64,000 nt of DNA from Cyanobacteria bacterium CYA (GTDB taxonomy: Bacteria > Planctomycetota > Phycisphaerae > Phycisphaerales > UBA1924). How positions within the stretch are numbered: the stretch's first letter is position 1; each line of letters begins with the position of its first letter. Both the position numbers and the translations under genes were made by a program. Below, one piece after another: positions 36,937 through 58,994 of this stretch. Location: the NCBI GenBank assembly GCA_008363215.1, contig RHKP01000003.1:186001-250000 (forward strand), read 5' to 3'. Under the pieces are notes generated by a model. It was not told the DNA's origin. It saw nothing but the letters and a program-made list of their open reading frames with translations, and made no database searches.

Positions 36937-37938
36937 ATGCCGACCGCACGCGCCCGCCGGGGCCAAGCCGCGTTCACGTTGATCGAACTGCTGGTAGTCA
37001 TCGCCATCATCGCCCTGCTCATCGGCATCCTGCTGCCGGCCCTGTCCAAGGCCCGAAAGTCAGCCCAGCAGATGGGCTGCCTCTCAAACACTCGGCAGAT
37101 CAGCCTGGCGATGAACGGGTACACAAGCGACAACCGAGAGTGGTACCCGTTACTCCCCTTCACCAACGCCGGACTTGCGGGGTGGACCAACAGCAATCCT
37201 GGAGTCAATGGTGGTCGGCCGTATCTCACCGATCAGGGTGTATTCGGCGGGGTCGCAGGTCTTTTCAGCACGTTCCAGATTGGGCAGGGCATTGCCAGCC
37301 GCCCGCCCTCGGGGGATGTGGGACACACCGGAAGCATCGTACCTGGTCGAGGCTTCGTGTACGAAGCGTACCCGAACGGCGTGACTACCCCCATCCTCGC
37401 TTCCTATCTGGAGGGCTTCCCGGTTCTCACCTGTCCAGCGGATCGAGAGACGATCTACTGGGGTCGGTTCTACGGTTCCTTGGAGCGCAACCTGCCCGCG
37501 GCCGTAGCGGCAAACCGCACCAAAGTGCCTGAGGCTCCCGGCTCGTCCGAAGACGTCATTGGCTACAACATCAGTTACATGTACATCGCAGGGTTCCGCG
37601 CCGGTGACCCCGAAATTCTCAAGCCGGCGCCTCTCTGGGGCGATGAAACGCAAGGGCCCGATGTCGGCGTCAACTCCTGGTACGGACAGGACGTGGACGC
37701 GGAATACGTCGGGCTCTCCGTGACCGCTGACGACGGACACCGCCACTATGCCAAGGTGGATAATCACGGAGATGCAGGCGCGAACTGGGCCTTTACCGAT
37801 GGGCATGCTGAGTTCGTCACGGGCAGCGTCCACAACGTTTTCTTTGAGAGACCGACTCCTGCCAAGCCCCATGTCAACGGCCAGAGCGTGAACGTGGTCA
37901 ATGAATACCGAAGCGATACTCTCCACACATTCGATTGA
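36937..37938 (+). CDS. Prepilin-type N-terminal methylation protein with H-X9-DG-like end
   Basis: A 333-residue pseudopilin-like protein. After a basic leader ([12 protein letters not shown]) comes the type IV prepilin cleavage site and helix, [20 protein letters not shown], with the conserved Glu5. The body is globular ([40 protein letters not shown]). Near the C-terminus [20 protein letters not shown] is the planctomycete H-X9-DG-like motif (ten residues here). Such proteins are expanded in planctomycetes; they are presumed cargo or structural parts of a type II secretion or pilus-like machine, but no function is proven. It is separate from the 40-48 kb prepilin cluster, whose members lack the H-X9-DG ending. 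The 3' end overlaps a small gene on the other strand by 41 bases. Confidence 0.85.
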
Positions 37939-38095
37939 CCCTCCCGACCAGGGCACGTTCCACCACCCGATTGCGGCGCATGCGGGTGTATCTCGGAATC
38001 AACGCCACGCGCAGCCGTCCCAGCAGCAACGGCACCAGCCCCGCGCACAGCAGGAGCGCCAGCAGGTCATCCCCTGGTGTTCCAGCCGCCAGCAT
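37898..38095 (-). CDS. Small membrane protein coupled to mnmG (hypothetical)
   Basis: A 65-residue frame whose ATG overlaps the mnmG stop (TGATG). It has one hydrophobic segment ([20 protein letters not shown], residues about 9-28) and a strongly basic C-terminus ([20 protein letters not shown]). I do not recognise it. Its stop lies 41 bases inside the 3' end of the convergent prepilin-like gene, which is unusual and lowers confidence. The coupling, hydrophobicity and positive-inside tail are consistent with a real single-pass inner-membrane protein, but the frame could equally be chance in GC-rich DNA. Confidence 0.35.
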
Positions 38096-40113
38096 CAGCA
38101 AGTCTCGCCCTGCCCCCACGCTCGCTTGGCCAGCACTGCCACCAGCGTCAGGTCGGCCGGCGTGATCCCCTCCAACCGCCCGGCCTGCCCCAGCGTATCC
38201 GGACGGAACCGGGCCAGCGCCTGACGCGCCTCGTGGCGCAGAGTCGAGCACTCTTCCCAGCGAATCCACCCGGGGATGCGCCGTCGCTCCGTGTCGGCCC
38301 GCCGCGCCACCTCGCGCCGCTCACGCTCGATATACGGCTCGTAGCGCACCTCGGCCAGCACGGTTTCGAGCACCTGGCGATCAAACCCGTCGCCCACGGC
38401 CCGCTGCACATCCTCCCAGGTCGCCTCTGCCCGGCGCAGCGACCTGAATAGATCACCATTGTGCAGTGCAGGGCGGCTTCCCGCCGCCTTCGCACCGCTC
38501 AAGATCGCGCGCACCGTCCGCATCTGCTCTGTGCGCCTCGCGTGCACACGCCGCCGCAACGCCCCGAGTTCGGAATGCGCGAGCAGCCCCAATCCCTCGG
38601 CCACCTCCGTCAGCCGATCGTCCGCATTGTCACTCCGCAGCATCAGCCGATGCTCGGCCCGGCTTGTGAACATGCGATACGGCTCGGTCGGCGTCTTGGT
38701 GACCAGGTCGTCCATCAACACGCCGATGTACGCCTCGTCACGCCGCGGAACCCACTCCCCCTGCCCGTGGCTCCAACGCACTGCATTCACGCCCGCGACC
38801 AGGCCCTGCGCGGCCGCCTCTTCGTACCCGCTCGTGCCGTTGATCTGCCCTGCCAGAAAAAGCCCGTCAATGAGTTTGGTCATCCCGGTCGCATGGATCT
38901 GGTGCGGGCGCACCATGTCATACTCGACGGCGTACCCGTAACGCAGGATCTCCGCTCGCTCGCACCCCGGCATCGCGCGCACCATCACGTCCTGCACGTC
39001 GCGCGGCAGACTCGTGGAGATGCCATTGCAGTAGACCCACTCCGTCCGCAAACTCTCAGGCTCAAGGAACACTGTGTGCGACTCGCGCTCGGCGAATCGC
39101 ACCACCTTGTCCTCGATGCTCGGGCAGTACCGCGGGCCGGCGCCCTCGATCTGCCCGCTGAACATCGGCGCCCGATGCAGATTCGCCCGGATCAACTCGT
39201 GCGTGCCCGCGTTGGTCGACGTCTTGCGACAGTGAACCTGCTCCAGCACCGGGAAACGCGAAAGCACCTCCCAACGAGCCCGCAGCGCCGGAGAGGGGGT
39301 ACACGGATCGATTCGTTGCTCACTTGCTTGCTCTTCGGGCTCGTTTGCATCGCCGGCACACACCCCGCTGAGCGCGCAAAATCGTTCCGGCTCCCCGTCC
39401 CCCTCCTGCACTTCCAGCGATTCCCAGTCGATCGTTGATCGCCGAAGCCGCGGCGGAGTCCCCGTCTTCAGCCGCCCCAGTTCAAACCCGAGTTTCCGTA
39501 ACGCCCCCGAGATCCCGACGGCCGCACCCTCGCCAAAGCGCCCCCCCGGCGTGCGATCCTCGCCGGTGTGCATGAGCCCGCGCATGAACGTGCCCGTGGT
39601 CAGCACCACAGCCGGGCTCGACAGGGCTTCCATCCGCCCGTCTGGAGTCTCGATGACAACCCCGGTGACTCGGCGCCAGCGCCCGCCCGCCGTTCCACCT
39701 GTTGATTCGCAGCCGATCTGCTCGACTCGACCGGCGACGACCTCGATCTCAGGCCGCGACGCCACCAACGCCCGCACCGTTTCCGCATACGCGTGCTTGT
39801 CGCACTGGCACCGAGGCCCGCGCACCGCCTGCCCGCGCGACGTGTTCAGCACCTTGAACATGATGCCCGCCGCGTCGGCCGCCAGTCCCATGATCCCGCC
39901 CAAGGCGTCGATTTCTCGGACCAACTGCCCTTTTGCCAGTCCCCCGATCGCCGGGTTGCAACTCATCTCCCCGATGCGGGAGGGATCCAGCGTCACCAAC
40001 GCCACCGATGCCCCACCGGGTCCGGGCCCCAGCAGATTGGCCGCCGCGCACGCCGCCTCGACCCCCGCGTGCCCGCCCCCGACCACGATGACTTGGTATT
40101 CTCTTCTGGGCAC
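38095..40113 (-). CDS. mnmG: tRNA uridine 5-carboxymethylaminomethyl modification enzyme MnmG (GidA)
   Basis: A 672-residue FAD enzyme that, with MnmE, adds the cmnm5 group to U34 of tRNAs. The FAD motif is VIVVGGGHAGVEAACAAANL (residues about 8-27). 'MSCNPAIGGLAKGQLVREID' and GGIMGLAADAAGIMFKVLNT, then RGPRCQCDKHAYAETVRALV, are family signatures. 'GRFGEGAAVGISGALRKLGF' and LKTGTPPRLRRSTIDWESLE follow, and later GQINGTSGYEEAAAQGLVAG and FTSRAEHRLMLRSDNADDRL. Slightly longer than E. coli MnmG (629), mainly through an insertion near 245-280 (AGDANEPEEQASEQRIDPCT). It starts with GTG, with TAGACT five bases upstream, so it is probably leaderless. Confidence 0.95.
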   Translation of the reverse strand: MPRREYQVIVVGGGHAGVEAACAAANLLGPGPGGASVALVTLDPSRIGEMSCNPAIGGLAKGQLVREIDALGGIMGLAADAAGIMFKVLNTSRGQAVRGPRCQCDKHAYAETVRALVASRPEIEVVAGRVEQIGCESTGGTAGGRWRRVTGVVIETPDGRMEALSSPAVVLTTGTFMRGLMHTGEDRTPGGRFGEGAAVGISGALRKLGFELGRLKTGTPPRLRRSTIDWESLEVQEGDGEPERFCALSGVCAGDANEPEEQASEQRIDPCTPSPALRARWEVLSRFPVLEQVHCRKTSTNAGTHELIRANLHRAPMFSGQIEGAGPRYCPSIEDKVVRFAERESHTVFLEPESLRTEWVYCNGISTSLPRDVQDVMVRAMPGCERAEILRYGYAVEYDMVRPHQIHATGMTKLIDGLFLAGQINGTSGYEEAAAQGLVAGVNAVRWSHGQGEWVPRRDEAYIGVLMDDLVTKTPTEPYRMFTSRAEHRLMLRSDNADDRLTEVAEGLGLLAHSELGALRRRVHARRTEQMRTVRAILSGAKAAGSRPALHNGDLFRSLRRAEATWEDVQRAVGDGFDRQVLETVLAEVRYEPYIERERREVARRADTERRRIPGWIRWEECSTLRHEARQALARFRPDTLGQAGRLEGITPADLTLVAVLAKRAWGQGETC

Positions 40114-40118
40114 CGCAG

Positions 40119-40124
40119 AGTCTA
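40119..40124 (-). promoter_or_regulatory. -10-like TAGACT box for a leaderless mnmG mRNA
   Basis: On the minus strand TAGACT ends five bases before the GTG start at 40113. No Shine-Dalgarno is present. Confidence 0.45.
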
Positions 40125-40300
40125 AATCCGGGGGGATGTCCCGGCCACAACCTCATTCCCACGACGGAGCGCGCGCGGGCTGTGCCCCGGCGAATCCCGG
40201 ACCACAGCATTCGCGAGCTTCGCCTTGTCCGAACATATGCCGAATATCTGATGCCCTGACCCGGTACCTTCTCACCAGACCCCAAAAAAGGCAAGACCCA

Positions 40301-40329
40301 TTGGCAAAGTCAAACCGGCGCTCTACAAT
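40301..40329 (+). promoter_or_regulatory. Sigma-70-type promoter of the first prepilin-cluster gene
   Basis: TTGGCA (40301-40306), 17 bases, TACAAT (40324-40329). It predicts a start near 40336 and a leader of about 164 bases before the gene at 40500, unusually long for this window. Confidence 0.65.
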
Positions 40330-40499
40330 GCCCCCTGTCTTTGGCTGGTTCCCAAAGGCAAGTATGAGTTTTGGCGGAACACGTCGTGGTTCCGATACGA
40401 ATACAATGGGCGTCTGGCGGGCGCGTTCTGTGCCCGGCCTCGGCGTGCGACGGTCAAGTTCACGCAACTTTCAGTGAACCTCGTTGAAGGGGTGAAGAC

Positions 40500-41579
40500 A
40501 TGGCAAAACTGGGTCTCAGTCGTTTTGGGCACAAGAGAGCGCTCGGCTTCACGCTCATCGAGTTGCTCGTCGTCATCGCGATCATCGCGCTGCTCATCGG
40601 CATCCTGCTCCCGGCCCTGGCCAAGGCACGCCGCGCCGGCCGCGGCGCCGTCTGCAAGTCCAATCTGAAGAGTCAGGGCACCGGCATGGCGTCCTACGCC
40701 ACCGACTTCCAGGACAAGATCGCCTCGTATTCCTGGCACGCCGGCATGGTACCCAACAGCGAGTTCATCGATTTCGACCCGGGGCCGAACGGCTTCTCGG
40801 ACGACATGCTGGCCGCTCAGTGGCAGAACACTGAAATCCTCCGTCGCCGCACCGGGCGCACCGAAGGCGCTGGCCGAATCCTCAGCAACACGCTGACCAT
40901 GCCTCACCGCATCTACAACCACCTCGTCCTCTTCGACTACCTCTCCAGCCAGTTGCCCGAAGCGATCGCCGCCTGCCCGGAAGACCGCAACCTCCTGCTC
41001 TCGGCCGCCAACCCGCTCGACTCGAGCCTCTGGGCTCAGATGCGCCCCGAGTACCCCAACGCCAGCCAGCACAATGGCGAGCGCGTCGCGCAGCGCTACC
41101 CCTTCTCTTCCACCTACCAGACCGTCCCGGCGACATGGGTGCCTGACACCGGTGGGTATGTGCGTCCCATCGCCAGCACCACGCACCTGTTCAGCACCGC
41201 CTCCGTCGACGGAATCTACGGCAGGCGCAGGATGAGCCAGGTCATGTTCCCCGGCGCCAAGGTGCAGATGTTCGAGTTCAATGACTACCACGGGAACACC
41301 AAGAACCCGTTCTACGCCTACCAGGAGGCCGCCTGCCAGATCCTCTTCTTCGACGCCTCGGTCCGCGCGATTCCGTCGGCCGATGCAAATCTCGGTTGCG
41401 ACCCCGGCACGCCCACCAGCCCTGACACCTTCTACTACGCGTACACACCATTGAACACGGAACCCGATCGGCTCAACGACGACTTGGTTCCCGTCCTCTA
41501 CCGGTTCACCCGTGGTGGTCTGGCCGGCGTCGACTTCGGTGCCAAGGAAATCAACACGGGCCAAGGCAACGTGCCCTGA
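40500..41579 (+). CDS. Prepilin-like protein, 'TRGG' family (copy 1, plus strand)
   Basis: A 359-residue pseudopilin-like protein. A basic leader ([15 protein letters not shown]) precedes the cleavage site and helix [20 protein letters not shown]. The body contains [48 protein letters not shown] and [20 protein letters not shown]. It ends with [22 protein letters not shown] instead of H-X9-DG. Three minus-strand paralogues at 45143, 46334 and 47523 share all these blocks; the one at 46334 is closest, with 47-base exact identities. GAAGGGGTG precedes the ATG, and a promoter lies 170 bases upstream. I infer a secretion-apparatus or surface-fibre subunit; no function is known for this family. 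Confidence 0.82.
40959..41005 (+). repeat. 47-base exact inverted repeat arm A (partner 46920-46966)
   Basis: This tract in the 40500 gene is identical to the reverse complement of 46920-46966 in the 46334 gene. It encodes part of the [15 protein letters not shown] block. It is one of two such exact tracts in the gene pair. Confidence 0.8.
41283..41329 (+). repeat. 47-base exact inverted repeat arm B (partner 46578-46624)
   Basis: Identical to the reverse complement of 46578-46624 in the 46334 gene; encodes the [16 protein letters not shown] block. The conservation of synonymous positions suggests recent duplication or gene conversion. Confidence 0.8.
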
Positions 41580-41630
41580 ACGCCTGACGGCGCAGGCTCC
41601 CAGACCTGACCTCATGTCAAGCAGGCATCC

Positions 41631-41665
41631 ACAGCCCCGGCCAAACAGGTCGGGGCTGTTCCTTT
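41631..41665 (+). terminator. Probable Rho-independent terminator after the 40500 gene
   Basis: ACAGCCCCG (41631-41639) pairs with CGGGGCTGT (41651-41659) around an 11-base loop, followed by TCCTTT. It is 52 bases after the stop. The T-tract is weak. Confidence 0.6.
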
Positions 41666-41932
41666 GGAGGAAATTAGCGAAGGACAAGTGAACTCGGCCC
41701 GGGTGGAATGAGGGCTCGTCCTCCTCACCCTGCCCCGCCTCCCGGTCTCCCGGCGTTCGGTATGGTTCCTCCGACCGCCCCCTTTGTTCCGGCCTGCGAA
41801 AAAGCGGATCTGAAAAGCCGGCTCACCCGAACAGACCCGTGCAGGACCGAGGTTCTCTCGGTACACTGTTTCTCAATGGCCCCGTTCGGGGTATCAGGGC
41901 GGTTCATCCACCCGGTTGATTTTGTCGTTTCA

Positions 41933-41950
41933 CCCGGTCCTTCGACCGGG
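41933..41950 (+). promoter_or_regulatory. 7-bp hairpin directly before the ribosome binding site of 41967
   Basis: CCCGGTC, loop CTTC, GACCGGG, immediately followed by GAGGGGG and the ATG at 41967. A stem this close to the ribosome binding site could affect translation, or mark the 5' end of a processed mRNA. Confidence 0.4.
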
Positions 41951-41966
41951 GAGGGGGTATCTGGAT

Positions 41967-42893
41967 ATGACACGCCGGAATGCGTTCACGCTGATCGAGT
42001 TGCTCGTCGTCATCGCAATCATCGCGCTGCTGATCGGGATTCTGCTCCCGGCGCTGAGCAAGGCCCGCGGCGCAGCCCAGAAGATCGCCAGCGGCGCCAA
42101 CCTCAAGGAGTGCTCGACGATCCAGTTCCTCTACGCCAACGACTTCAAGGACGAGTGGGTCAATCCGTTCGAGCGTGACGGATGCAACGGGGTCAGTTCG
42201 GCCTGGCTCTGGGTAGTCGGAGATGAGTGCCGCGTCGGCTGGGATTATCAGAGCGGTTCGCAGCAGTCTGAGAGTTACGGGTGGCACTGGCTGGCCCACA
42301 CGCTCTATGCCTATGACCAGGTCGAGTCGCGTCTGGGCATCATCGCCGCACCCGGCGACCGCGCGCTCCAGAACTGGCTGCGCGAGAACCGCGATGCCAA
42401 CGCTCAGTCCAACCTGAACTGGATCTTCCCGACCAGTTACTGGTACTCGCCGGTCTTCTGGCAGGACAAGGCGCGCTTCACCAGTTTCGTCGAGCAGTTC
42501 GCCGGTCCGGCGGCCGACTTCTGGTTCAAACGTAACCGCGTCTCTGACGTGCTCTACACTACGCAGAAGGTCGTGCTGATGGAGAACAAGGACTTCGTCA
42601 AGCCCGACCAGCCCCAGTTCAACAAGCCGGGCGCCGAGCCGCAGACCATGCTGGCCGACGGCAGCGTTCGGGCCGTCTCGCTCAACGAGATCATCGCCGA
42701 AACAGACCTTCAGACTTCGTTCTCCCAACCCGATCGTGCCGATGGGCTCTGGTATCCCTCCGGGCGATTCGCCCCAGGCACCGCATTCACCCGGCAGATG
42801 TACGGCGAGCCGCAGGGCTTTTACTGGGACGTCACCCAGCCCGCATATCTCTGGCGCACCCGCTTCGGCATCACCGGCCGTGACTTCAGGTAA
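41967..42893 (+). CDS. Prepilin-like protein, 'GRD' family (copy 1)
   Basis: A 308-residue pseudopilin-like protein with a very short leader (TRRNA) before [20 protein letters not shown]. The body is rich in Trp, Tyr and Phe: [60 protein letters not shown]. It contains [20 protein letters not shown] and a 'LADGSVRA' strand, and ends [24 protein letters not shown]. The gene at 43176 shares the same plan and the TR.G..GRD ending. Both lack H-X9-DG and the TRGG tail, so I treat them as a second family. It is the first of four closely spaced genes (13, 30 and 3 bases apart) with two small membrane proteins, clearly one operon. Confidence 0.8.
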
Positions 42894-42905
42894 AGGAACT
42901 CACTC

Positions 42906-43145
42906 GTGAACGCTCGCAAGGGGTTGATGATCGGGCTCGTGATCGTGTGTCTTGGACTGGCGGTCCTCACCTATTTCGCCCTGTCGCCCAAGAAGGCGAC
43001 CGAATCGTCCGAGTACGAGAAGATGAAGGCCCGATCGGACGAGATGACTCAGAAGGCGCAGGAGGCCGCGCCCAAGCAGCCTCAGATTCCCGAGGAGGAC
43101 TTCACGCCGCCGACGGGCAAGGGCCCGCAGCGCGTGGGAGGATGA
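42906..43145 (+). CDS. Small single-pass membrane protein between two prepilin-like genes
   Basis: A 79-residue protein. The N-terminus is basic (MNARKG), then one transmembrane helix (LMIGLVIVCLGLAVLTYFAL, residues about 7-26), then a charged, Glu/Lys/Pro-rich tail (YEKMKARSDEMTQKAQEAAP, EEDFTPPTGKGPQRVGG) that should face the periplasm. AAAGGA lies about 8-13 bases before the GTG/ATG region. It has the same plan as the 103-residue protein at 44190, although the sequences differ. I do not recognise a family. Its position right after a prepilin-like gene suggests an accessory of that protein, for example an assembly or anchor factor; this is inference. Confidence 0.7.
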   Translation: MNARKGLMIGLVIVCLGLAVLTYFALSPKKATESSEYEKMKARSDEMTQKAQEAAPKQPQIPEEDFTPPTGKGPQRVGG

Positions 43146-43175
43146 GCGCCACAGCGGCGGAGATCGGAGGGGGAC

Positions 43176-44186
43176 ATGGGCCCACGTCGGGCGTTCACGC
43201 TGATTGAGTTGCTCGTCGTCATCGCGATCATCGCGCTGTTGATCGGCATCCTGCTACCAGCGCTGGGAAAGGCGCGGCGCAGCGCCCAGAATCTCCAGAG
43301 CGAATCGAACCTCAAATCGCTCGCCCAGATCAGTGCGCTCTACAACAACTCCAACTCTGATTCATTCATCAATCCCTTCCCGCAGAACTACGTGGCCGGC
43401 GGAAACGTGGGCGGCGACTGGGCACGCGCCAAGAAGCCCGGCTATGGCGGGACGTGGATCTTCAGCGGCCCGGGCGCCTGGTACAGCGAGATGTACGCCT
43501 TCCACTGGTACAGCCTCGTGGCCAGTGAACTCAACGAAGGCGACTGGGCGAGCGAAGTGCAGTTCGCTCCTCTCGATCCGGCCCCCTACCGTCGCTTCGC
43601 AGACATGTTCTCGAACGGATACGCCGACTTCTGGCGATGGATCTGGGACTCGTCCTACTGCCTCAGCCCGACGCTGTGGTTTGCGCCGGAGCGGTATGAC
43701 GACGACTTCCGCCCCGCGCCGGTCAGGGCCAACGCCCCCTCCTCCCTGGTCCGCCGCAACCGCGTTGATCACGTCGTGTTCACATCCTCGAAGGTCACCA
43801 TGTGGGAACGCTTTGATACCACCGTGCAATCTCGAACCGCGTCGACGGTGATTCCCGGGTCGAACATCACGGTGGGTTTCGGGCAGCAGCCGTACTCACC
43901 CAACTGGAACAACCCCTACGCGACGCCCAACGTCGCAACGGCCGACGGGAGCGTCGCTCGCGTCGACATGGCCGACCTCTACGATCGCACCGCCGACAGC
44001 AATCCCAACCGAGCCATCGAATGGAAGCCCACGGACGTCTGGAACCCGCCTTCGACTACCGTGCTGCGAGCCTACGGCATGGACCAGGACAACCTGGAGA
44101 ACGGCACCACCGAGAACCCCGGCAGTTACCCGGCCTTCTTCTGGGCGACCCGCAACGGCGTCAAGGGGCGTGACATCCCAAGGTGA
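43176..44186 (+). CDS. Prepilin-like protein, 'GRD' family (copy 2)
   Basis: A 336-residue pseudopilin-like protein. A five-residue leader (GPRRA) precedes [20 protein letters not shown]. Shared blocks with the 41967 protein are [20 protein letters not shown] followed by INPF, an aromatic middle ([40 protein letters not shown]), [31 protein letters not shown], and the ending [27 protein letters not shown] precedes the ATG. It lies 30 bases after one small membrane-protein gene and three bases before another. The role is unknown; the Trp/Tyr-rich surface could bind polysaccharide or another protein, which is speculation. Confidence 0.8.
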
Positions 44187-44189
44187 GAC

Positions 44190-44501
44190 GTGGACCCGGG
44201 TCAGAAGCAGAAAGTCATTGGCGCCCTGGCTGTGCTGCTGCTGCTCGCCGGCAGCCTGCTGATCGTCCGCGCGTTGCTCCCACCCCGGTCCGCAGGCGGC
44301 GGGGAACTGAATGAGCGGGCCCAACGCGGACTGGGTGCGGCCGGCGCACTCAACGCCGATCCGTCCCAACTTCCCCCTCGCGGAAACATGACCGACGACG
44401 AGTACGCGCGGCATCTCATGCACCTGCGCGAGGAGGCCGACCGTCGCGCCGGCGAGAGCATCGAGCCCGGCTCAGCCCGAGGCCCGGCTAAAGGCGGGTG
44501 A
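44190..44501 (+). CDS. Small single-pass membrane protein after the second GRD-family gene
   Basis: A 103-residue protein starting with GTG three bases after the prepilin-like stop. One transmembrane helix (VIGALAVLLLLAGSLLIVRA, residues about 9-28) follows a short Lys/Gln N-terminus; the tail is polar and helical (GGGELNERAQRGLGAAGALN, MTDDEYARHLMHLREEADRR). It parallels the 79-residue protein at 42906 in topology and in position right after a GRD-family prepilin gene, but I see no clear sequence match, so the resemblance may be convergent. It ends the plus-strand operon. I do not recognise a family. Confidence 0.7.
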   Translation: MDPGQKQKVIGALAVLLLLAGSLLIVRALLPPRSAGGGELNERAQRGLGAAGALNADPSQLPPRGNMTDDEYARHLMHLREEADRRAGESIEPGSARGPAKGG

Positions 44502-44611
44502 ACCCCACCGTCAATCCGGATGCAGGAACGGAGGCGTCGCGCCCCAGGGCAGCCGAACGAGGCCGCCCACTACGGCATGGTCGCTGGCCCGGGGCTGCGC
44601 GTGCATCGGCG

Positions 44612-44944
44612 TCAACAGGCCGCGCGGACCTGCCCGGAGATCTGGGAGAGCAGAACTCCACCCCGCTCGGTGATCGTCAGTTCGTCGCGCAGCCCGCCGA
44701 CCTGGCGGATGTACCCGGTTTTGAGCAGGCGTTGGCGCAGCGGCCACCACTCGTTGCCGAAGCCGAGCCACAGTTCGTCCTCGAAGCGTCCGCTGTGCCC
44801 GTGGTCGAGCAACTCGAGGGCGCGTTTCAGGCATTCGGTCTGAGTGTGGGTGAGATTCAAGTCCAACCCCTCCTGCGTGGCGTCCTCTGTTGCCTTACAC
44901 AACGCTTCAGAGGGCCGCCCGGTTGCATCGGAGTCATGGGTCAC
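44612..44944 (-). CDS. Small protein of unknown function at the convergence of the prepilin operons
   Basis: About 110 residues if it starts at GTG 44944; the frame is open to 45079, but a TATAAT box at 44978-44983 falls within that extension and argues for the shorter form. Two parts are visible: an acidic helical N-terminus (DLNLTHTQTECLKRALELLD) and a C-terminal stretch WWPLRQRLLKTGYIRQVGGL then LTITERGGVLLSQISGQ, which could be a winged-helix-like unit as found at the ends of small regulators. No catalytic motif is seen. It lies between two converging prepilin groups but has its own promoter. The family is not recognised, and a regulatory role is only a guess. Confidence 0.5.
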   Translation of the reverse strand: MTHDSDATGRPSEALCKATEDATQEGLDLNLTHTQTECLKRALELLDHGHSGRFEDELWLGFGNEWWPLRQRLLKTGYIRQVGGLRDELTITERGGVLLSQISGQVRAAC

Positions 44945-44977
44945 TTGCTGGAATCTCTTGTCAGACAACAAGTTGCG

Positions 44978-44983
44978 ATTATA
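44978..44983 (-). promoter_or_regulatory. TATAAT -10 element for the 44612 gene
   Basis: An exact TATAAT on the minus strand, with transcription expected near 44971 and a leader of about 27 bases to GTG 44944. The leader contains the inverted repeat CTTGT-N6-ACAAG (44958-44973), which overlaps the expected start and could be an operator. No good -35 element is seen at 16-18 bases. Confidence 0.5.
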
Positions 44984-45142
44984 CGGCGCCGGGCCCGACC
45001 GACGCCACACCCGACAAAGACCATTCTTGCACGAGCATAATCTGCCGAAACAGGTTGACAAAAGACCGCCGGGCGACAAAACAAGCCATACCCCGTTCTC
45101 GGACCATCACCTGTTGTCGAACCCCGGAAACAACCCGACAGA

Positions 45143-46153
<1,011 letters not shown>

Positions 46154-46257
46154 GTGTTTCCCCGTTCCGCTCGGCCACTGGCTCCGAGAGGACTGCCATT
46201 GAACCAGCAAGACTGGGCCGGAGCAAGCGCCGCCCGGGGTAAAAGTCCCCCTCGCCG

Positions 46258-46281
46258 GTGGCACGGGTGTCTCGGTGCCAC
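46258..46281. promoter_or_regulatory. Stem-loop between two minus-strand prepilin-like genes
   Basis: GTGGCAC (46258-46264), a 10-base loop and GTGCCAC (46275-46281). It could be a processing or attenuation signal within the three-gene group. No T-tract follows on either strand. Confidence 0.4.
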
Positions 46282-46333
46282 GGGGCGTCCCGCCCGTGAG
46301 CCCTCCCCTCCGGTCGGGTCCGGCTCTGCCACT

Positions 46334-47392
46334 TCACTGCGGCTGCCCGGTGTCGATCTCGCTGCCTCCGAAGTCGATGCCCGACAGCCCGCCGCGGGTG
46401 AAGCGGTACAACACCGGGACGGGATCGTCATTGAGCCGATCGGGCTCGGTCGACAGCGGCGTATACATGTAGTAGAAGGTGTCGGCACTGGTCGGATCGC
46501 TGGGGTTCCAACCCCGGTTTGCGTCGGCAGAAGGCACCGAGCGCACCGAGGCGTCAAAGAACAGGATCTGGCAGGCAGCCTCCTGGTAGGCGTAGAACGG
46601 GTTCTTGGTGTTCCCGTGGTAGTCGTTGTGCTCGAACATCTGCACCTTGGAGCCGGGGAAGACGACCTGACTCATGCGGCGTTTGCCGTGCATGCCGTCG
46701 GCCTGAACTACGGTGAACAGGTGCGTGGTCGCAAAGATCGGCGAGACCCAGGCCTGTCCGGCGTAGGCCAGCCCCTCAGGCGCCCAGGCGTTCGGGATGG
46801 TTTGGTAACTCGATGAGAACGGGTAGCGCTGCTGCACGCGCTCCCCGTTGAACTTGTTGAGGCTGATGCCGGGCCAGGCGGGCATCGATGCCCACAGCGA
46901 GGGGTCCAGCGGACTGGCAGCCGAGAGCAGGAGGTTGCGGTCTTCCGGGCAGGCGGCGATCGCTTCAGGCAACTGGCTGGAGAGATAGTCGAACAGGACG
47001 AGGTGGTTGTAGCGCCGGTGCGGCATGGTCAGCGTGTTGTTGAGAATGCGCCCTTCTCCATCGACACGGCCCGTGCGGCGTCGGAGTATTTCGGTCTGCT
47101 GCCACATGGCCGCCTGCATGTCGTCCGGGAAGCCGTTGGCCGGCCCGTTGATCCACTCGTTGATGACGACCATCCCGGCGCGCCACGAGTAGGACGCGAT
47201 CTTGTCCTGGAAGTCGGTGGCGTACGAGGCCATGCCCGTACCGGTGTTCTTGAGATTGGACTTGCAGACGGCCCCGCGCCCGGCGCGGCGCGCCTTGGCC
47301 AGAGCCGGGAGCAGGATGCCGATGAGAAGCGCGATGATCGCGATCACCACCAGCAGTTCGATAAGCGTGAACCCTCGCCGAGGCTTGTGCAT
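46334..47392 (-). CDS. Prepilin-like protein, 'TRGG' family (copy 3, minus strand)
   Basis: A 352-residue pseudopilin-like protein. The leader MHKPRRG precedes [20 protein letters not shown]. It is a close paralogue of the 40500 protein: [80 protein letters not shown] and [20 protein letters not shown] are the same or nearly so, and it ends [31 protein letters not shown] lies nine bases before the ATG, an excellent ribosome binding site. It has two exact 47-base inverted matches to the 40500 gene. The function is unknown; the low divergence points to recent duplication or ongoing conversion. Confidence 0.82.
46578..46624 (-). repeat. 47-base exact inverted repeat arm B (partner 41283-41329)
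   Basis: Reverse complement of 41283-41329, in the coding region for [16 protein letters not shown] of the 46334 gene. Confidence 0.8.
46920..46966 (-). repeat. 47-base exact inverted repeat arm A (partner 40959-41005)
   Basis: Reverse complement of 40959-41005, in the coding region for [15 protein letters not shown] of the 46334 gene. Confidence 0.8.
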
Positions 47393-47522
47393 GGCCTGTC
47401 CTCCTTTGGCCGACCAGAGCCGCCGGCCCGGCTTCCAATGAACCAGAGCACCTACAAAAGTGCAAATCCGAAAAATGACGATCGCGCGCAGGTGACGCGC
47501 GACGTCGAGGAGGGGAGTTCTC

Positions 47523-48575
47523 TCAGTCTCGCGGCTGCCCGGTGTCGATTTCCTTGCCGCCGTAGTCGATGCCGGTCAATCCCCCGCGTGTCCAGCGGTA
47601 CGACACCGCCAGCAGTTCGGCCGGATCGCCCAGCGGCCTCGGTTCGAGATCCAGGGGAGTATAACGGCACATCGACGGATTCGGCGAAGTGGGGTTCTGC
47701 GGGTTCCAGCCGCGGTTGGCGTCGCTGGTCGCGTTGGCGCGCACGGATGCGTCGAAGAACAACTGATTGCAGCGCGCTTGCTGATAGGCGTAAAAGGCGT
47801 ATTCCTTCGAGTTGTGCCAGTCGTGGAACTCGAACATGAAGACCTTGCTGCCGGGGAAGACCACTTCGCTCAACTTGCGTCGTCCGGCCCACCCGTCAAC
47901 GTTCATGACCCAGAAGAGGTGCGTGGTGGTGTGCGGCCAGACGTAGTCGCCGTTGTCGGGCGCCCAGGCCTGCGGAATCGTCTGGTACGTTGACGCGAAG
48001 GGCCAACGCTGACGCACCTCGAGTTGGTTGAAAGATCCGGCGATGTCGGCGCTGTACTGTGGGTCAGCCTGTGCCCAGAGCGACTCGTTGAGCGGGTCGC
48101 TCTGCGAGAGAATGAGCCCGCGATCTTCCGGGCAGGCGGCGATCGATTCGGGCAACTGGCTGGAGAGATAATCGAAGAGGATGAGGTGGTTGAAGCGCCG
48201 ATGCGGCATCGTCGTCCAGTTGTTGAGGATCTTGTAGTCCCCGTCACCGCGTCCGGTCAGACGCCGCAGAATCTCCGTCGCCTGCGCCATGCCGGCGCGG
48301 ATGTCGCTGGAATGCGGCCCGTTGATGGGGGGCCACGGCGTGTTGTACGTCTCGCCGGAACGCCAGGTGTACGACGTGACTTTGTCCTCGAAGTCGGTGG
48401 CATACGACGCCATTGCCACTCCGAGTTGCTTGAGGTTGCCCGCGCACACCACGCCGCGTCCAGCCCGGCGCGCCTTGGCCAGCGCCGGAAGCAGGATGCC
48501 GATCAGCAACGCGATGATTGCGATCACCACCAGCAGTTCGATGAGGGTAAATGCACGATGGCGCGGCCTGGACAT
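47523..48575 (-). CDS. Prepilin-like protein, 'TRGG' family (copy 4, minus strand)
   Basis: A 350-residue pseudopilin-like protein. The leader MSRPRHRA precedes [20 protein letters not shown]. Family blocks: [100 protein letters not shown] and the ending [23 protein letters not shown] central [20 protein letters not shown] replaces the [20 protein letters not shown] of copies 1 and 3. It is the first gene of the minus-strand group. GCAGGAGCA lies before the ATG at 48575; the frame is open far upstream but without a leader-like sequence. Role unknown. Confidence 0.82.
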
Positions 48576-51097: not shown

Positions 51098-52423
51098 ATG
51101 ACTCCACGGCGTGCAACGCGACAGGTGAAGGTGGGTGATGGGCGGACAGGGATCGTGCTCATCGGCGGGGGGATCGGACACGGGCAGGACACCCGCGCCG
51201 CCGTGAGCAGGATCCACCGGCTGGAAGCCGGTCCCGCTGAGATCGAGGCGCCTGCGCCGGTCACCGTCCAGAGCATGGCCAGCGGGTACACGCACGATGT
51301 TGACAAGTGCGTCGCGGAAATTCACAAGTTAGCCGCCGCGGGGGCGGACATCGTCCGAGTGGCTGTGCCCGAGCGCAAGGACACGCATGCTCTGCCTGCG
51401 ATTCTGCGGCAGACCACGGTGCCGATCGTCGCCGACGTGCATTTTCACTACAAGCGGGCGCTCGAATCGATCGAGGCCGGGGTGCACAAGATCCGTCTCA
51501 ACCCCGGCAACATTTCCGATCGGTCCCAGGTTGAGGAGGTCATCCGTGCCTGCCGCGACGCGAAGATTCCCATCCGCGTCGGCGTCAACGAGGGGTCGAT
51601 CGTCGAGCGCAAGGACAAGCAGAAGCGGGCGGCTGAACTGGCCGGCGTCTTCGGCGACCGCAGGCACGGCGCGATGCTGGCGATCATGATCGCCAAACTC
51701 GAGGAATACCTCGACATCTTCTACGACAATGACTTTTTCGACGTGGTCATCAGCGCCAAGTCAATCGACCCGACACTGGTGATCGACGCGTACACGGAGA
51801 TCGCGCGGCGCTTCGATCATCCGCTGCACCTGGGCGTGACGCACGCGGGCCCGAAGGAAACCGGGTGCATCCGCAGCGTGGTCGCGCTGGGCACGCTGCT
51901 GGCCAACGGCATCGGCGACACCATCCGCATCAGTTACGCCAACGACCCGATCTACGAGGTTGAGGACGGGCTGGAACTGCTGTGGTCGCTGGGGCTGCGC
52001 GAGCGCAAGGGGGCCGAACTGATCGCCTGCCCGACGTGCGGACGCATCCAGGTCGACCTGTTCACGCTGACGCAGAACGTGCGGGCAAAACTGGCCGAGC
52101 AGATCACGGTGCCCATGAAGGTGGCGGTGATGGGCTGCGTGGTCAACGGGCCCGGCGAGGCCGAGGGAGCCGACGTGGCGGTGTTCGCCGGGGATCGCAA
52201 GGGCATCATCTATGTGCAGGGGGAGCGCGTCGCGACGGTGGGCGAGAGCGAGATCCTTGATCGGCTGCTGGCCGAGTGCGTCGCGTTTCAGAATCGAGTG
52301 CGCTCGGGCCAGGCCAAACTCGGTGAGAAAAAAGTTCACATCACTCCGCCAGACCCGATCGGCGAACTGGGGAGCGGGTGGGAGAAGATGGCCGCGACGC
52401 GGCTGACGGTCGAAGGGCAGTGA
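51098..52423 (+). CDS. ispG: 4-hydroxy-3-methylbut-2-enyl diphosphate synthase IspG with N-terminal insertion
   Basis: A 441-residue iron-sulfur enzyme of the MEP isoprenoid pathway. After RRATRQVKVGD the usual six- or seven-residue turn before PVTVQSM is replaced by about 39 residues (GIVLIGGGIGHGQDTRAAVS, then RIHRLEAGPAEIEAPA). The TIM barrel follows: VTVQSMASGYTHDVDKCVAE, GADIVRVAVPERKDTHALPA, KIRLNPGNISDRSQVEEVIR, LGVTHAGPKETGCIRSVVAL and GIGDTIRISYANDPIYEVED. Cluster ligands are the two Cys in CPTCGR and the third in MGCVVNGPGEAEGADVAVFA, followed by the conserved Glu. The rest is normal. The ATG at 51098 is preceded by TACCAT, so it is probably leaderless. The insertion is odd and may affect the active-site lid. 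Confidence 0.93.
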   Translation: MTPRRATRQVKVGDGRTGIVLIGGGIGHGQDTRAAVSRIHRLEAGPAEIEAPAPVTVQSMASGYTHDVDKCVAEIHKLAAAGADIVRVAVPERKDTHALPAILRQTTVPIVADVHFHYKRALESIEAGVHKIRLNPGNISDRSQVEEVIRACRDAKIPIRVGVNEGSIVERKDKQKRAAELAGVFGDRRHGAMLAIMIAKLEEYLDIFYDNDFFDVVISAKSIDPTLVIDAYTEIARRFDHPLHLGVTHAGPKETGCIRSVVALGTLLANGIGDTIRISYANDPIYEVEDGLELLWSLGLRERKGAELIACPTCGRIQVDLFTLTQNVRAKLAEQITVPMKVAVMGCVVNGPGEAEGADVAVFAGDRKGIIYVQGERVATVGESEILDRLLAECVAFQNRVRSGQAKLGEKKVHITPPDPIGELGSGWEKMAATRLTVEGQ

Positions 52424-52754: not shown

Positions 52755-54071
52755 TCAGTCTCCGCGCTTCATCTGCTGTTCGATCGTTCTTCGCATCATC
52801 GAGCGGAACGACTTGACCTGCTCGGCACTCAGGCCCGATTCTTTCACGTCGACCGTGATCGCCGGTATCCACGTCGTGCTCTCGTACCTGTACCCCAGTT
52901 CTTCGCAGATGCGCTTCTCCAGGTCGGCAAAGTGCCCGGCCCCGTAAAAGATGGCTACCGACCTGGCCCCTGGTTCCTTTTCCACGACCTCGCGCAGATC
53001 GGCCACCACCTGCTTGTTGCGGTCGACCGTGAGCACCTTCATCAGTTCGCCGAGCGCGCCCGGCTGCGACTCGAGAATCGCGTCGGCATTGCACAGCGTG
53101 TCGGACAGCACAATCTTGATCATCGCCCGCCCTTGCTGGCTCGATCCCATCAGTTTGACCAGGAAACCCATCGATTTGGCCAGGAACGAATCGCCCGACA
53201 GCGCGCCGAACAGCATGTCGGCCGCCTTTTCGGCGTCGGTACGATCGCCCGACCGCTCCTCGGCCGGGGCCGGCTGGGAGTCTCCCGCAGGTTCAGTCGC
53301 CCCGATTTTCCGCTTCGGCGGGATCGGCTCACCCGCCAGGGCCGCCCGGATCTGCTCGACGTTCAGGTCGCTGTTCCGCCAGTGCGGGTGCGAGTAGTCG
53401 ATACCATCCAACTGAAACGCCAGCCCGAGCGCGTCCGCCAGGTCGCGCTGCAATCCCTTGGCCTCGGCCCCCTCGGGCTTGAACACCTGATGGGGCTGGA
53501 TCTTTGAGAAACGCCGGTCGGCATCGTCGCCTTCACCACCGGGGCGCCCGTCGGCCCCGAAACTCATCGCGTCGAAGCCATCCCGCACCTGGAGTTGCAC
53601 CGGATTACCCCAAGCATCTTCAAACGCCGAGGCCACAAAAGTGCGCGTCGCACCCTCGAACGATTCAACAATCTGCGCACTCGATGTCGGATAGCGCCCG
53701 GTGTCGCGGTGCATCTGCTCGGCCAACATGCCGATCAGGCGCAGTCTGCGGTCGGTCGCCAGCGTCGCCGCTGCCTCAGCAGGCTCGGGCTGCGGCTCGT
53801 GCCCCCCGCCCACACCTTCGTACAGCACCAGATCGTGTGCATCGAGCCATGCCTGGAGTTCCTCATAGAAAGAAGGGTCGGCAATGTGCACCGCGCCGAC
53901 CAAACGCACCACCGGTCCGTTCTCGTCCGGCACGAGCGTCCGCACGGCCACTTCGAGCCGGCTGGTCTGATCGTTCGGCTCGGTGACCCGTACAAAGGGC
54001 GACTCTTGAGCAACAGCGATTCCCGCACAGGAAATCAGCGCAGCGACGGCTCGGAACAGGTGCTTGTTCAT
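52755..54071 (-). CDS. TraB/GumN-like protein carrying a GspG-like pseudopilin domain
   Basis: A 438-residue exported protein (signal NKHLFRAVAALISCAGIAVA). Residues about 45-90 look like the first half of a TraB/GumN-type domain: VVRLVGAVHIADPSFYEELQ then AHDLVLYEGVGGG. Residues about 107-190 match the globular part of the type II secretion major pseudopilin GspG: RLIGMLAEQMHRDTGRYPTS, a 'DAWGNPVQLQVRDGFDAMSF' strand and GADGRPGGEGDDADRRFS, including the GADG.GG.GDDAD calcium-loop-like motif. The TraB-like part then resumes (QLDGIDYSHPHWRNSDLNVE) and ends with AIFYGAGHFADLEKRICEEL. There is no prepilin helix. AAGGAG precedes the ATG. The product may dock to, or mimic, secretion-apparatus pseudopilins; that is inference. 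Confidence 0.78.
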   Translation of the reverse strand: MNKHLFRAVAALISCAGIAVAQESPFVRVTEPNDQTSRLEVAVRTLVPDENGPVVRLVGAVHIADPSFYEELQAWLDAHDLVLYEGVGGGHEPQPEPAEAAATLATDRRLRLIGMLAEQMHRDTGRYPTSSAQIVESFEGATRTFVASAFEDAWGNPVQLQVRDGFDAMSFGADGRPGGEGDDADRRFSKIQPHQVFKPEGAEAKGLQRDLADALGLAFQLDGIDYSHPHWRNSDLNVEQIRAALAGEPIPPKRKIGATEPAGDSQPAPAEERSGDRTDAEKAADMLFGALSGDSFLAKSMGFLVKLMGSSQQGRAMIKIVLSDTLCNADAILESQPGALGELMKVLTVDRNKQVVADLREVVEKEPGARSVAIFYGAGHFADLEKRICEELGYRYESTTWIPAITVDVKESGLSAEQVKSFRSMMRRTIEQQMKRGD

Positions 54072-55961: not shown

Positions 55962-56119
55962 GCCCTCGGCCCCCGGTTCGGAAGGGCCGGAACAGCACAA
56001 GCCCAAGCCGCGAATAGCCGCCCGTGGCCCGCCGACGGGCGCGGCGGCTGGGGAAGCGCTCCTGCGCCGTGAGCAGCGTGTGCAGGGATGTGTGGGGCCC
56101 CCACTCCTCCGGGTGATGG

Positions 56120-56125
56120 TACGAT
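56120..56125 (+). promoter_or_regulatory. -10-like TACGAT box for a leaderless mRNA
   Basis: TACGAT ends seven bases before the ATG at 56133. Confidence 0.5.
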
Positions 56126-56132
56126 CGTGAAG

Positions 56133-57506
56133 ATGCAGTTCATGGTGCGACTTGGCGTCGGCGCGTCGGGGCTCCTTGCCCTGGGACTGGTTGCGCCTCT
56201 GCCGGCGGGCGGACAGGATTCCGGGTCGGGGCCGCAAGAGTCTGCGCCGTCAACCCAACCGCCTGCTTCGCCCGATGCTGTGCCGATTGCGCCGGATACC
56301 CCTCGGCCGGAGACGCCCGAGGCCAAGCCCGGCGCCGCTCCCGAGGGCCCGCGCGAGGTCGTGCTTTCGCTACGCGGAGGGCGCGAGGTCTCCGGGGTTC
56401 TGGTGCGTGAGGACGCGAAGATCATCACACTGCGGATCGAAGGGATCGAGACCGGCTTTGAGAAGTCGAGCCTGACGGGCATGCGCGAGTTGCCCCCGGT
56501 GCTCGAACGCTACGTCACGATGCGATCGCTCCTGTCCGACGACGACCTGGACGGACGCGTCCTCCTGGTCGAGTGGCTGCGTTCACGCCAGATGTACCAA
56601 CTCGCTCTGTTTGAGATCAACGCCGTGCTCGACCGGGATCCGATGCACGCACGGGCCCGCGAACTGAAGTTGTGGCTTGACCTGCAGGTGAACCTGACCG
56701 AATCACGGGCCGCGGGCGAGCAGCCGGGCGGAGCCGACGCCGACGCCAAGGCGGCCTATCAAGCACGCCAGCGGGCCAAGAACGAGTTTCCGCTGCTCTC
56801 CCCGGATCAGATCAACTTGATCAAGGTGTACGAGGTCGATCTGCGCCATCCGCCGCCGCTGCTGATCAAGCGTGCGACGATCGAGCAGTTGATCAGGATG
56901 TTCCCGGCAAGCCCGCTGATCCCAGCCACGCCGGAGGGACGCGAAGCACTCCTGCGGCAAACGCCTGAGCGATTGCTCGAACTGATGTTCCGCCTCCAGG
57001 CGCGGGAGTTGTATGGGCAGGTGCTTGTGCGGGGTCATCCCGACTCGCTGGAACGCTTCCGCAACGAGGTGCACGGGCGATGGCTGGTCAACACGTGCGC
57101 CACGGCTCAGTGCCACGGCGGAGGTGAGGCGGGGCGGTTATGGCTCTACGACCGCAAGCCGTTTTCGGACGAGACGGTGTATACCAACTTCCTGATCCTG
57201 GAGCGGTTCAGACTGGCGGACGGGACGCCGCTGCTGAACTACTCCGAGCCGGCGCGGTCGCCGTTGCTTCAGATGGGGCTGCCCACTGAGTTGAGCCTCT
57301 ATCCGCACCCTTCGGTGCCGCGAACCAAGGGCTCGCGTGGGTGGCATTCGGTGTTCAGGACTGCGGAGGACAAGCGATTTCAGGAGGCGGTCGGGTGGCT
57401 TTCGACGATGTATCGCCCTCGCCCGGAGTACCCCATCAAGTATGAACCACCGAGGTTTGAGATGAAGGACGAAACCGGAGCAGAAGCGGGCAAACCGGAT
57501 CGTTGA
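56133..57506 (+). CDS. Secreted protein with a CX4CH motif (possible c-type haem protein)
   Basis: A 457-residue exported protein (signal RLGVGASGLLALGLVAPLPA). A Pro/Ala/Glu-rich linker is followed by a small beta-rich region (VVLSLRGGREVSGVLVREDA). Helical repeats cover residues about 115-260. Near residue 318 comes WLVNTCATAQCHGGGEAGRL, with C322, C327 and H328. This is C-x4-C-H, not the usual C-x2-C-H of c-type haem, although CX4CH haem sites are known. Similar NTCATAQCHGG stretches occur in other planctomycete secreted proteins of unknown role. The C-terminal part (RTKGSRGWHSVFRTAEDKRF, EAVGWLSTMYRP) resembles the end of cytochrome-like planctomycete domains. It probably faces the periplasm. 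Confidence 0.7.
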   Translation: MQFMVRLGVGASGLLALGLVAPLPAGGQDSGSGPQESAPSTQPPASPDAVPIAPDTPRPETPEAKPGAAPEGPREVVLSLRGGREVSGVLVREDAKIITLRIEGIETGFEKSSLTGMRELPPVLERYVTMRSLLSDDDLDGRVLLVEWLRSRQMYQLALFEINAVLDRDPMHARARELKLWLDLQVNLTESRAAGEQPGGADADAKAAYQARQRAKNEFPLLSPDQINLIKVYEVDLRHPPPLLIKRATIEQLIRMFPASPLIPATPEGREALLRQTPERLLELMFRLQARELYGQVLVRGHPDSLERFRNEVHGRWLVNTCATAQCHGGGEAGRLWLYDRKPFSDETVYTNFLILERFRLADGTPLLNYSEPARSPLLQMGLPTELSLYPHPSVPRTKGSRGWHSVFRTAEDKRFQEAVGWLSTMYRPRPEYPIKYEPPRFEMKDETGAEAGKPDR

Positions 57507-57596
57507 GAGTGGGAAGCGGGACACAGGCGTCCTAAAGTTTGCGGAACCCTGCGCTGGGGAGCCGGACCACTACCGTTGTCGAGGGAATCAGCAACA

Positions 57597-58994
57597 ATGG
57601 CACGTTCGATCAGGCTTGGAAGCACGGCGAAGAAGTTGTTGACGGCGGGCCTTTTGGGCGCAGGCGTGCTGACCGCCTGTGACCAGAGCAGCCAGGCCGG
57701 TCGCGCCATTGATGAGGCGGGGCGCTCGATTCACGCCATCGCCGGAGGCGGCGGGGCGGCGATGGAGCCTTCGATCACCGTCGAGCATTTTGAGCAGGCG
57801 CAGAAGGCGCTGGAGCGTCCGTCGCTGGACGGTACCGATGCGGAGAAAGCCGGAGTGATGGTGCTCAAGGCACGCACCGGGGCCGGGCTGGCGGCCGGAG
57901 ACGCGCTGACGATGGGCGCGCTGGAGCGTCAGAGTGAGTCCTTCGCGGCCGAGATCCGCTCGCTGCTGCGGCGCTGGGAAGAGGAGAGCGCGCTGGCAGC
58001 CGCGGCCGAGAGTTACGACCCTGCTTCCGAACTGGCCGAACTGGCCGAGGTGGAGTCGGACATCAGGTCGCAGATGCAACGGGTGGAGCAGGAGAAGCGT
58101 GAGATTGACGGGCGTATTGCCGATCTGGAGTCGCAGATCGCCCGGTTGCAGCAGGAAGCCCATGTTGAGCGGGCGAAGAGCGCCGAACTGGAACTCAAGG
58201 CGGCAGGGATGACGGCAGTGGCGGCGGCGGAGGTCGCCCCGCAGATTCAGCAGCACGCGCAAGCGGCCGAGGGCAAGTTGTTCGAGGTTTCGCGTTTGCA
58301 GGCTCGTGTCGACCACATGCGGACGGGCGCGACCGAGGCGGCGCTGACGATGGAGAAGTTCTCGCAGCAGTTGACGCTCAATGAGCAGGCCAAGGCCGAC
58401 GTGGCCGCTCTCCAGCAGGCCGGTCGGCAGGAAGCCGAACAGGCCTGGGCGCAGGCCCGCCAGGCCGCCGAACAGATTCGTGCTCAGGCCGAGGCGATGC
58501 TCACGTTCCGCCAGTCAGGCCCGGGCGGCGAAGGCATCGGGCTCGACCAGGTATCGACAGATCAGATTTCCAAACTGCGCAACGCCGTGAGCAACGCCCG
58601 ACAGGGGGTGTCGGCGATGCGCGTGAGCGCTCGGGCGGCGTTGGGTTCGGGCAACGTGGCGCTGGGAGACGCTTTGTCGAAGAGAGCCCGGTCGTTTGAA
58701 GACCTGGCCTTGCTGATGGAGCGGGTGGCAACGGCGACGCCCGCGCTGCCGGACTCGGCCTGGTTTGCCGACCAGGCAACCAAGGCCCGCGAGCAGTCCG
58801 AAGCGGCCCTGACCGAGGCTCGTGAAGCCTATGGCGCGGCTGCGGAGGACTTTGCGGGCCTGGGGGGCAAGGCCGAGACGGCCGATCTGCTCAGTAAACT
58901 GTCGGACCGGCTCAGGACGAGCGCGGGCGGGGGGCCGGCGTCTGAAGATGAGCCCACCGGCGGCGATGCCTCCGCCGACGAAGACGAGGGCTGA
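57597..58994 (+). CDS. Coiled-coil lipoprotein of unknown function
   Basis: A 465-residue protein with a lipobox (LLTAGLLGAGVLTAC, Cys near residue 28), so it should be a lipoprotein. Residues about 145-300 are a long coiled coil (AELAEVESDIRSQMQRVEQE, KREIDGRIADLESQIARLQQ) and the rest is Ala-rich helix (EAEQAWAQARQAAEQIRAQA). The C-terminus is acidic (ASADEDEG). No enzymatic motif is seen. GAGGG lies about 11 bases before the ATG at 57597; a TTG at 57576 is possible but would spoil the lipoprotein signal. A structural or scaffolding role in the envelope is the most that can be said. It lies 90 bases after the CX4CH protein gene. Confidence 0.72.
   Translation: MARSIRLGSTAKKLLTAGLLGAGVLTACDQSSQAGRAIDEAGRSIHAIAGGGGAAMEPSITVEHFEQAQKALERPSLDGTDAEKAGVMVLKARTGAGLAAGDALTMGALERQSESFAAEIRSLLRRWEEESALAAAAESYDPASELAELAEVESDIRSQMQRVEQEKREIDGRIADLESQIARLQQEAHVERAKSAELELKAAGMTAVAAAEVAPQIQQHAQAAEGKLFEVSRLQARVDHMRTGATEAALTMEKFSQQLTLNEQAKADVAALQQAGRQEAEQAWAQARQAAEQIRAQAEAMLTFRQSGPGGEGIGLDQVSTDQISKLRNAVSNARQGVSAMRVSARAALGSGNVALGDALSKRARSFEDLALLMERVATATPALPDSAWFADQATKAREQSEAALTEAREAYGAAAEDFAGLGGKAETADLLSKLSDRLRTSAGGGPASEDEPTGGDASADEDEG

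Follow-up and report, generated by a model that had tools for sequence, protein, structure and literature searches.

The window, the whole stretch of 64,000 nucleotides that was analysed, carries on its reverse strand a gene for a 438-residue protein in which a GspG-type globular domain interrupts a TraB-like fold (Table 1). The start methionine is identical in the closest homologue (L002), and the protein is apparently exported, judging by its Sec-type N-terminus, a region modelled by AlphaFold as a helix of low pLDDT in the context of the whole protein. The gene is neighboured by ispG and glycosyltransferase genes, with no T2SS operon around it, and ispG lies near the homologous gene in eight of the 13 neighbourhoods compared, the window included. 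Two adjacent 472-residue ORFs at 56088-58994 of the window, neither with a Pfam match at 1e-5, both have counterparts in a genome of the same genus (L154).

Table 1. Positions in the window of the gene, its encoded domains and motifs, and the convergent neighbour.
Feature	Position	Strand	Basis or remark
Gene for the 438-residue TraB-like protein with GspG insert	52755..54071	-	Stop codon included; coding part 52758-54071
Apparent Sec-type signal peptide, about residues 1-22 (MNKHLF...CAGIAVAQ)	54006..54071	-	Cleavage site placed by eye
TraB-like fold, N-terminal part, residues 23-92, with GxxH (H62) and E85	53796..54005	-	Alignment, AlphaFold
Inserted GspG globular domain, residues 96-197	53481..53786	-	Pfam T2SSG, AlphaFold, PDB comparison
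Calcium-type loop, S170-D185 (SFGADGRPGGEGDDAD)	53517..53564	-	D174 and D185 kept wherever the loop exists
TraB-like fold, C-terminal part, residues 207-438, with R351 and GAGH (H380)	52758..53453	-	Alignment, AlphaFold, Pfam TraB_PrgY_gumN at 334-382
E85 codon, predicted catalytic Glu, about 10 residues ahead of the insert	53817..53819	-	Invariant in 77/77
H62 codon, first GxxH motif	53886..53888	-	Invariant in 77/77
H380 codon, second GxxH (GAGH) motif	52932..52934	-	Invariant in 77/77
ispG/gcpE, convergent neighbour	51098..52423	+	Pfam GcpE, E 1.4e-115

The identity of the insert was determined by both profile and fold comparisons. By hmmscan against Pfam, residues 100-185 matched T2SSG with an E-value of 8.2e-7 (29.5 bits versus a cut-off of 21), and the same profile was matched by 32 of 33 homologues, at best with 3.7e-12; the score against TIGR01710, the GspG equivalog of NCBIfam, was 21.9 bits, far under its cut-off of 88.85. 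The best sequence matches in the PDB were solved GspG structures, reaching 5.5e-12 with the family profile. AlphaFold modelling of the whole protein on the family alignment yielded a pLDDT of 87.6 and a pTM of 0.85, Foldseek comparison of this model with the PDB returned GspG structures on top, and its residues 96-197 were realigned to EpsG with a Z of 11.7. When modelled alone, the insert reached a pLDDT of 93.1, its best Foldseek matches were all GspG (E 4.7e-4, Z 11.5), and a Z of 9.7 was obtained against the calcium-bound PulG. The GspG globular domain that the initial annotation had placed at about residues 107-190 was thus confirmed, spanning about 96-197, and its position between two TraB-like halves, likewise upheld by AlphaFold and fold comparison, turned out to be true of the whole protein family. 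An independent GspG fold was recovered both within the whole protein and in isolation, by which an uninterrupted TraB fold lacking any separate GspG unit was ruled out, and the T2SSG score together with the fold comparisons eliminated a chance or low-complexity resemblance. No relative was found among viral contigs, nor a convincing viral fold match.

The insert shares with the T2SS major pseudopilins (GspG/EpsG/PulG/XcpT) the globular fold (Z 11.5-11.7), the D-x-W-G core and the calcium-type loop S-x-G-x-D-G-x-x-G-G...D, and differs from them in lacking the prepilin peptide, the hydrophobic polymerisation helix and the alpha-beta-loop signature (GL..L...W.GPY), the last being kept in the pseudopilin rows of the alignment but lost in the inserts. 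In the 438-residue sequence neither a type III prepilin motif nor a hydrophobic helix with E5 precedes the domain; ahead of its start at about residue 96 lies the TraB part, with the Sec-like end of the protein, and the prepilin helix had correctly been noted as missing at the outset. In further distinction from GspG, the domain sits inside another protein, and the gene lies outside any gsp operon.

The part surrounding the insert is probably related to the TraB/PrgY/GumN and TIKI proteins. The Pfam profile TraB_PrgY_gumN (PF01963) matched the protein at residues 334-382 below threshold (18.9 versus 26.8 bits), and was matched by 28 of the 33 homologues at an E-value of 0.1 or better (best 6.7e-10), above the cut-off in three genomes. 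Residues 15-397 around the insert aligned with chain 8b6h_DQ of the Tetrahymena complex IV (Z 8.8 over about 200 residues), and this chain is probably the TraB-family subunit reported for that complex (PMC10060162). Across 77 sequences, insert-bearing and insert-free, H62, E85, Q220, D235, R351, Y376, G377 and H380 are all invariant, while the first Gly of the first GxxH motif is sometimes replaced by Ala or Ser. The two GxxH motifs, the Glu after the first of them, the conserved Arg and the weak but repeated profile matches are common to the family in question and to the protein studied here, in which, unlike in that family, the GspG domain interrupts directly after the first Glu and the Pfam score stays under the cut-off. 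To our knowledge, no activity is known for any close homologue. Since TIKI and erythromycin-esterase (Ere)-type enzymes rely on a His-Glu pair (PMC6254334), H62 and E85 with H380 constitute a plausible active site, and the TraB part may be enzymatically active. The invariance of these putative catalytic residues would be needless in a mere carrier, and so speaks against a TraB part that only carries a soluble protein competing with, or chaperoning, pseudopilins; a GspG-like fold freed of its membrane helix and provided with an apparent Sec-type signal would suit such a protein, but no conserved pilus or T2SS neighbourhood was found among the 13 neighbourhoods compared, and we regard this explanation as very improbable.

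In an alignment of 33 rows, no variation was seen at, among others, H62 and E85 in the TraB part and D152, W154, S170, G172, D174 and D185 in the insert. Purifying selection acts on the insert, as its dN/dS against the same-genus genome is 0.04, and its near-invariant residues are those of the fold and the calcium loop. Like pseudopilins, the inserts possess the D-x-W-G core and, in most copies, the loop, whose D174, G178, G179 and D185 are preserved as in pseudopilins. In E. coli GspG the corresponding loop binds calcium, with its ligands described (PMC3396595), and the same capacity is likely for the insert. Three homologues of one family (f63; L159, L160 and L161) have lost the loop with the helix, the DAWG core and the TraB part intact, and calcium is therefore not always essential. 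These data bear on a possible calcium switch, in which the ion bound to the loop would order a lid and activate or inactivate the adjoining hydrolase. The ligand Asp residues retained in nearly all inserts, the resemblance of the loop to the pseudopilin calcium site (PMC3396595) and the closeness of the insert to E85 in sequence are all consistent with such a switch; however, calcium in pseudopilins is known for stability and function and not for enzyme switching, L159-L161 retain the insert without the loop, and the insert is confidently folded without calcium in the model, which as an AlphaFold prediction is no test of a calcium requirement. Calcium switching thus appears improbable to us.

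The distribution was surveyed in 61 genomes of 55 genera, namely the genome that holds the window and 60 relatives, by taking a best E-value of 1e-17 or lower as a full-length or near full-length homologue. Such a homologue was present in 39 of the 61 genomes, and the other 22 gave either no match or matches to pseudopilin-like segments alone. About 50 insert-bearing homologues were collected, mostly from one order of Planctomycetota, probably the Phycisphaerales; the same-genus genome (84% identity), labelled as a Phycisphaerales MAG, was the sole one found in the scan of genome contigs. With the insert located at the identical place in about 50 homologues of many genomes, a gene fusion confined to one genome or an assembly artefact was ruled out. 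Searching the whole class with the profile of the family revealed insert-free homologues, whose matches covered profile positions 1-100 and 200-400 and left out the insert. The distance from the Glu motif to the next conserved helix was measured as 20-28 residues in these, versus 118-147 in the insert-bearing ones. Searching the phylum greatly enlarged the set of TraB-part matches, with many insert-free sequences and several insert-bearing ones from beyond the class (L157-L162); insert-free homologues occur within the class as well as in other groups of the phylum. The insert-free planctomycete proteins (for example L074-L093 and L168-L174) share the core and the putative active-site residues, and most of them differ in having a linker of 20-28 residues where the GspG domain would be.

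In a tree of GspG domains, all 50 inserts were grouped in one clade (support 0.92) with no pseudopilin inside, and in a tree of the TraB part one clade (support 0.84) held all 48 insert-bearing sequences and no insert-free one. A single clade in both trees makes a single insertion the likeliest and most parsimonious origin, at a tree support that is moderate and compatible with transfer between lineages; repeated independent insertions need not be invoked under the same, moderately supported, topology.

Since the insert-free relatives keep the putative active-site residues, the insert would not be needed for the basic chemistry. Mean identity across the family is 33% in the insert versus 48-50% in the adjacent core, and the insert varies in length among homologues. 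Faster divergence of this kind, variable length and the identical core residues of insert-free relatives would all be expected of a structural appendage that became fixed while contributing little itself (solubility or stability). On the other side, all members of the clade that were recovered retain the insert, six of its residues (D152 to D185 above) are invariant, and the within-genus dN/dS is low, so we consider a passive appendage as doubtful as the calcium switch.

The window holds, at 36967-48557 and on both strands, seven ORFs of prepilin-like character that contain FTLIELL segments, and four of these have a TRGG motif at their end. The initial annotation had put the gene beside a locus rich in prepilin-like proteins, which is correct as to the richness but not as to the adjacency, as the cluster lies 4-17 kb away, at least 4 kb at its nearest, with GH15 and ispG genes between. 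Among 12 other neighbourhoods, prepilin-like ORFs were located near the gene in one, that of the same-genus genome (two ORFs, L154), so a conserved association with such a cluster was ruled out, the ORFs not being found near homologues outside the genus. Genes of the T2SSG type are present in 60 of the 61 genomes, and presence or absence of pseudopilins can therefore not show a link with the fusion. They are also present in 21 of the 22 genomes that gave no full-length fusion match, the remaining one (G049) having neither, which indicates that the fusion is not required where pseudopilins occur.

These observations weigh on the idea of the insert as a docking module, which by attaching to the pseudopilus, to pseudopilins or to prepilin-like proteins would recruit the TraB hydrolase to a secretion or pilus machine, where the enzyme could, for example, trim or clear misassembled pilins. 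Docking of this kind would fit a true GspG homologue of the same predicted fold, the pseudopilin-type genes of nearly all relatives and the cluster elsewhere in the window. It is made unlikely, in our view, by the missing polymerising helix and the lost alpha-beta-loop signature (W.GPY, GL..L), by the restriction of the nearby cluster to the same genus, by the T2SSG-type genes in all but one of the genomes that lack a full-length fusion match, and by the persistence of insert-free homologues in other groups. No specific support emerged for the proposals of the initial annotation, a mimic that could bind the secretion fibre or a decoy, sensor or chaperone, and the location of the insert next to a predicted catalytic Glu instead favours a role at the TraB active site.

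The genome that holds the window also has two pseudopilin loci (L040 and L042, on contigs C36 and C1), with ORFs resembling GspF, GspG and minor pseudopilins; the loops of their GspG-like products (GPDGEDGTEDD and GPDRQAGTMDD) differ from the insert type GADG..GG.G.DAD.

The safest statement is that the protein is apparently an exported TraB/TIKI-like protein with a domesticated GspG head domain within its active-site loop. As our leading explanation, tentative and held at somewhat less than even confidence, we propose that it is an exported TraB/TIKI-type hydrolase, in which the domesticated and probably calcium-stabilised GspG domain on the active-site loop serves as a lid or a substrate-recognition module. 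In this scheme, a GspG globular domain, devoid of the prepilin peptide and the hydrophobic helix, would have been inserted a single time, in an ancestor of the host genome's order or of a wider group, into the short loop of the TraB fold behind the Glu that is predicted to be catalytic. Outside the cytoplasm, the insert may then form a rigid, calcium-stabilised cap by the mouth of the active site, as suggested by the domain folding alone and by most copies keeping the loop residues, and the cap would restrict or select the substrate. The position of the insert in the sequence would place it near the predicted active site. A lid or recognition role was judged the likeliest because the insert adjoins the invariant Glu and its pilus-type features are lost; in our ranking docking comes after it, followed by calcium switching and the passive appendage together. 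The neighbouring genes, which suggest no substrate, count against the lid, and the faster divergence of the insert than of the core is also compatible with a loosely constrained appendage.

Other GspG domains without a prepilin segment were encountered in the survey. Four proteins of about 450-490 residues (L164, L165, L166 and L167, in genomes G474, G578, G396 and G413) carry three to four tandem GspG domains behind an apparent signal peptide and no prepilin helix, L164 matching T2SSG in four stretches with an E-value of 2e-33. An apparent membrane protein (L140, in G133) has a GspG domain at its end (T2SSG, E 5.7e-21), not preceded by a prepilin motif. These five resemble the protein described here in having GspG domains free of the prepilin segment, and differ from it in having no TraB link and in being placed apart from the insert clade in the GspG tree. 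A bolder form of the proposal, for which they are cited in support, is that in an exported hydrolase of the TIKI type the pseudopilin head has become a lid or a determinant of specificity that depends on calcium, and that the GspG fold is a reusable soluble calcium module in Planctomycetota; this we hold to be possible, rather than probable.

Type IV pilin-like proteins are usually viewed as filament subunits held by an N-terminal helix. Here, the loop at the predicted active site of an unrelated fold has received a pseudopilin head, apparently in a single event, and the head has been kept through the radiation of an order, so that a building block of the secretion fibre is reused in soluble form within another protein. 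In the open-access papers searched, no description of the TraB plus GspG-insert architecture was found. A T2SSG match in a planctomycete genome need not signal a secretion system, and the homologues with and without the insert offer a natural experiment on what a lid would bring to a TraB/TIKI-type enzyme. If the calcium-dependent lid is true, a building block of the secretion fibre would now control an enzyme.
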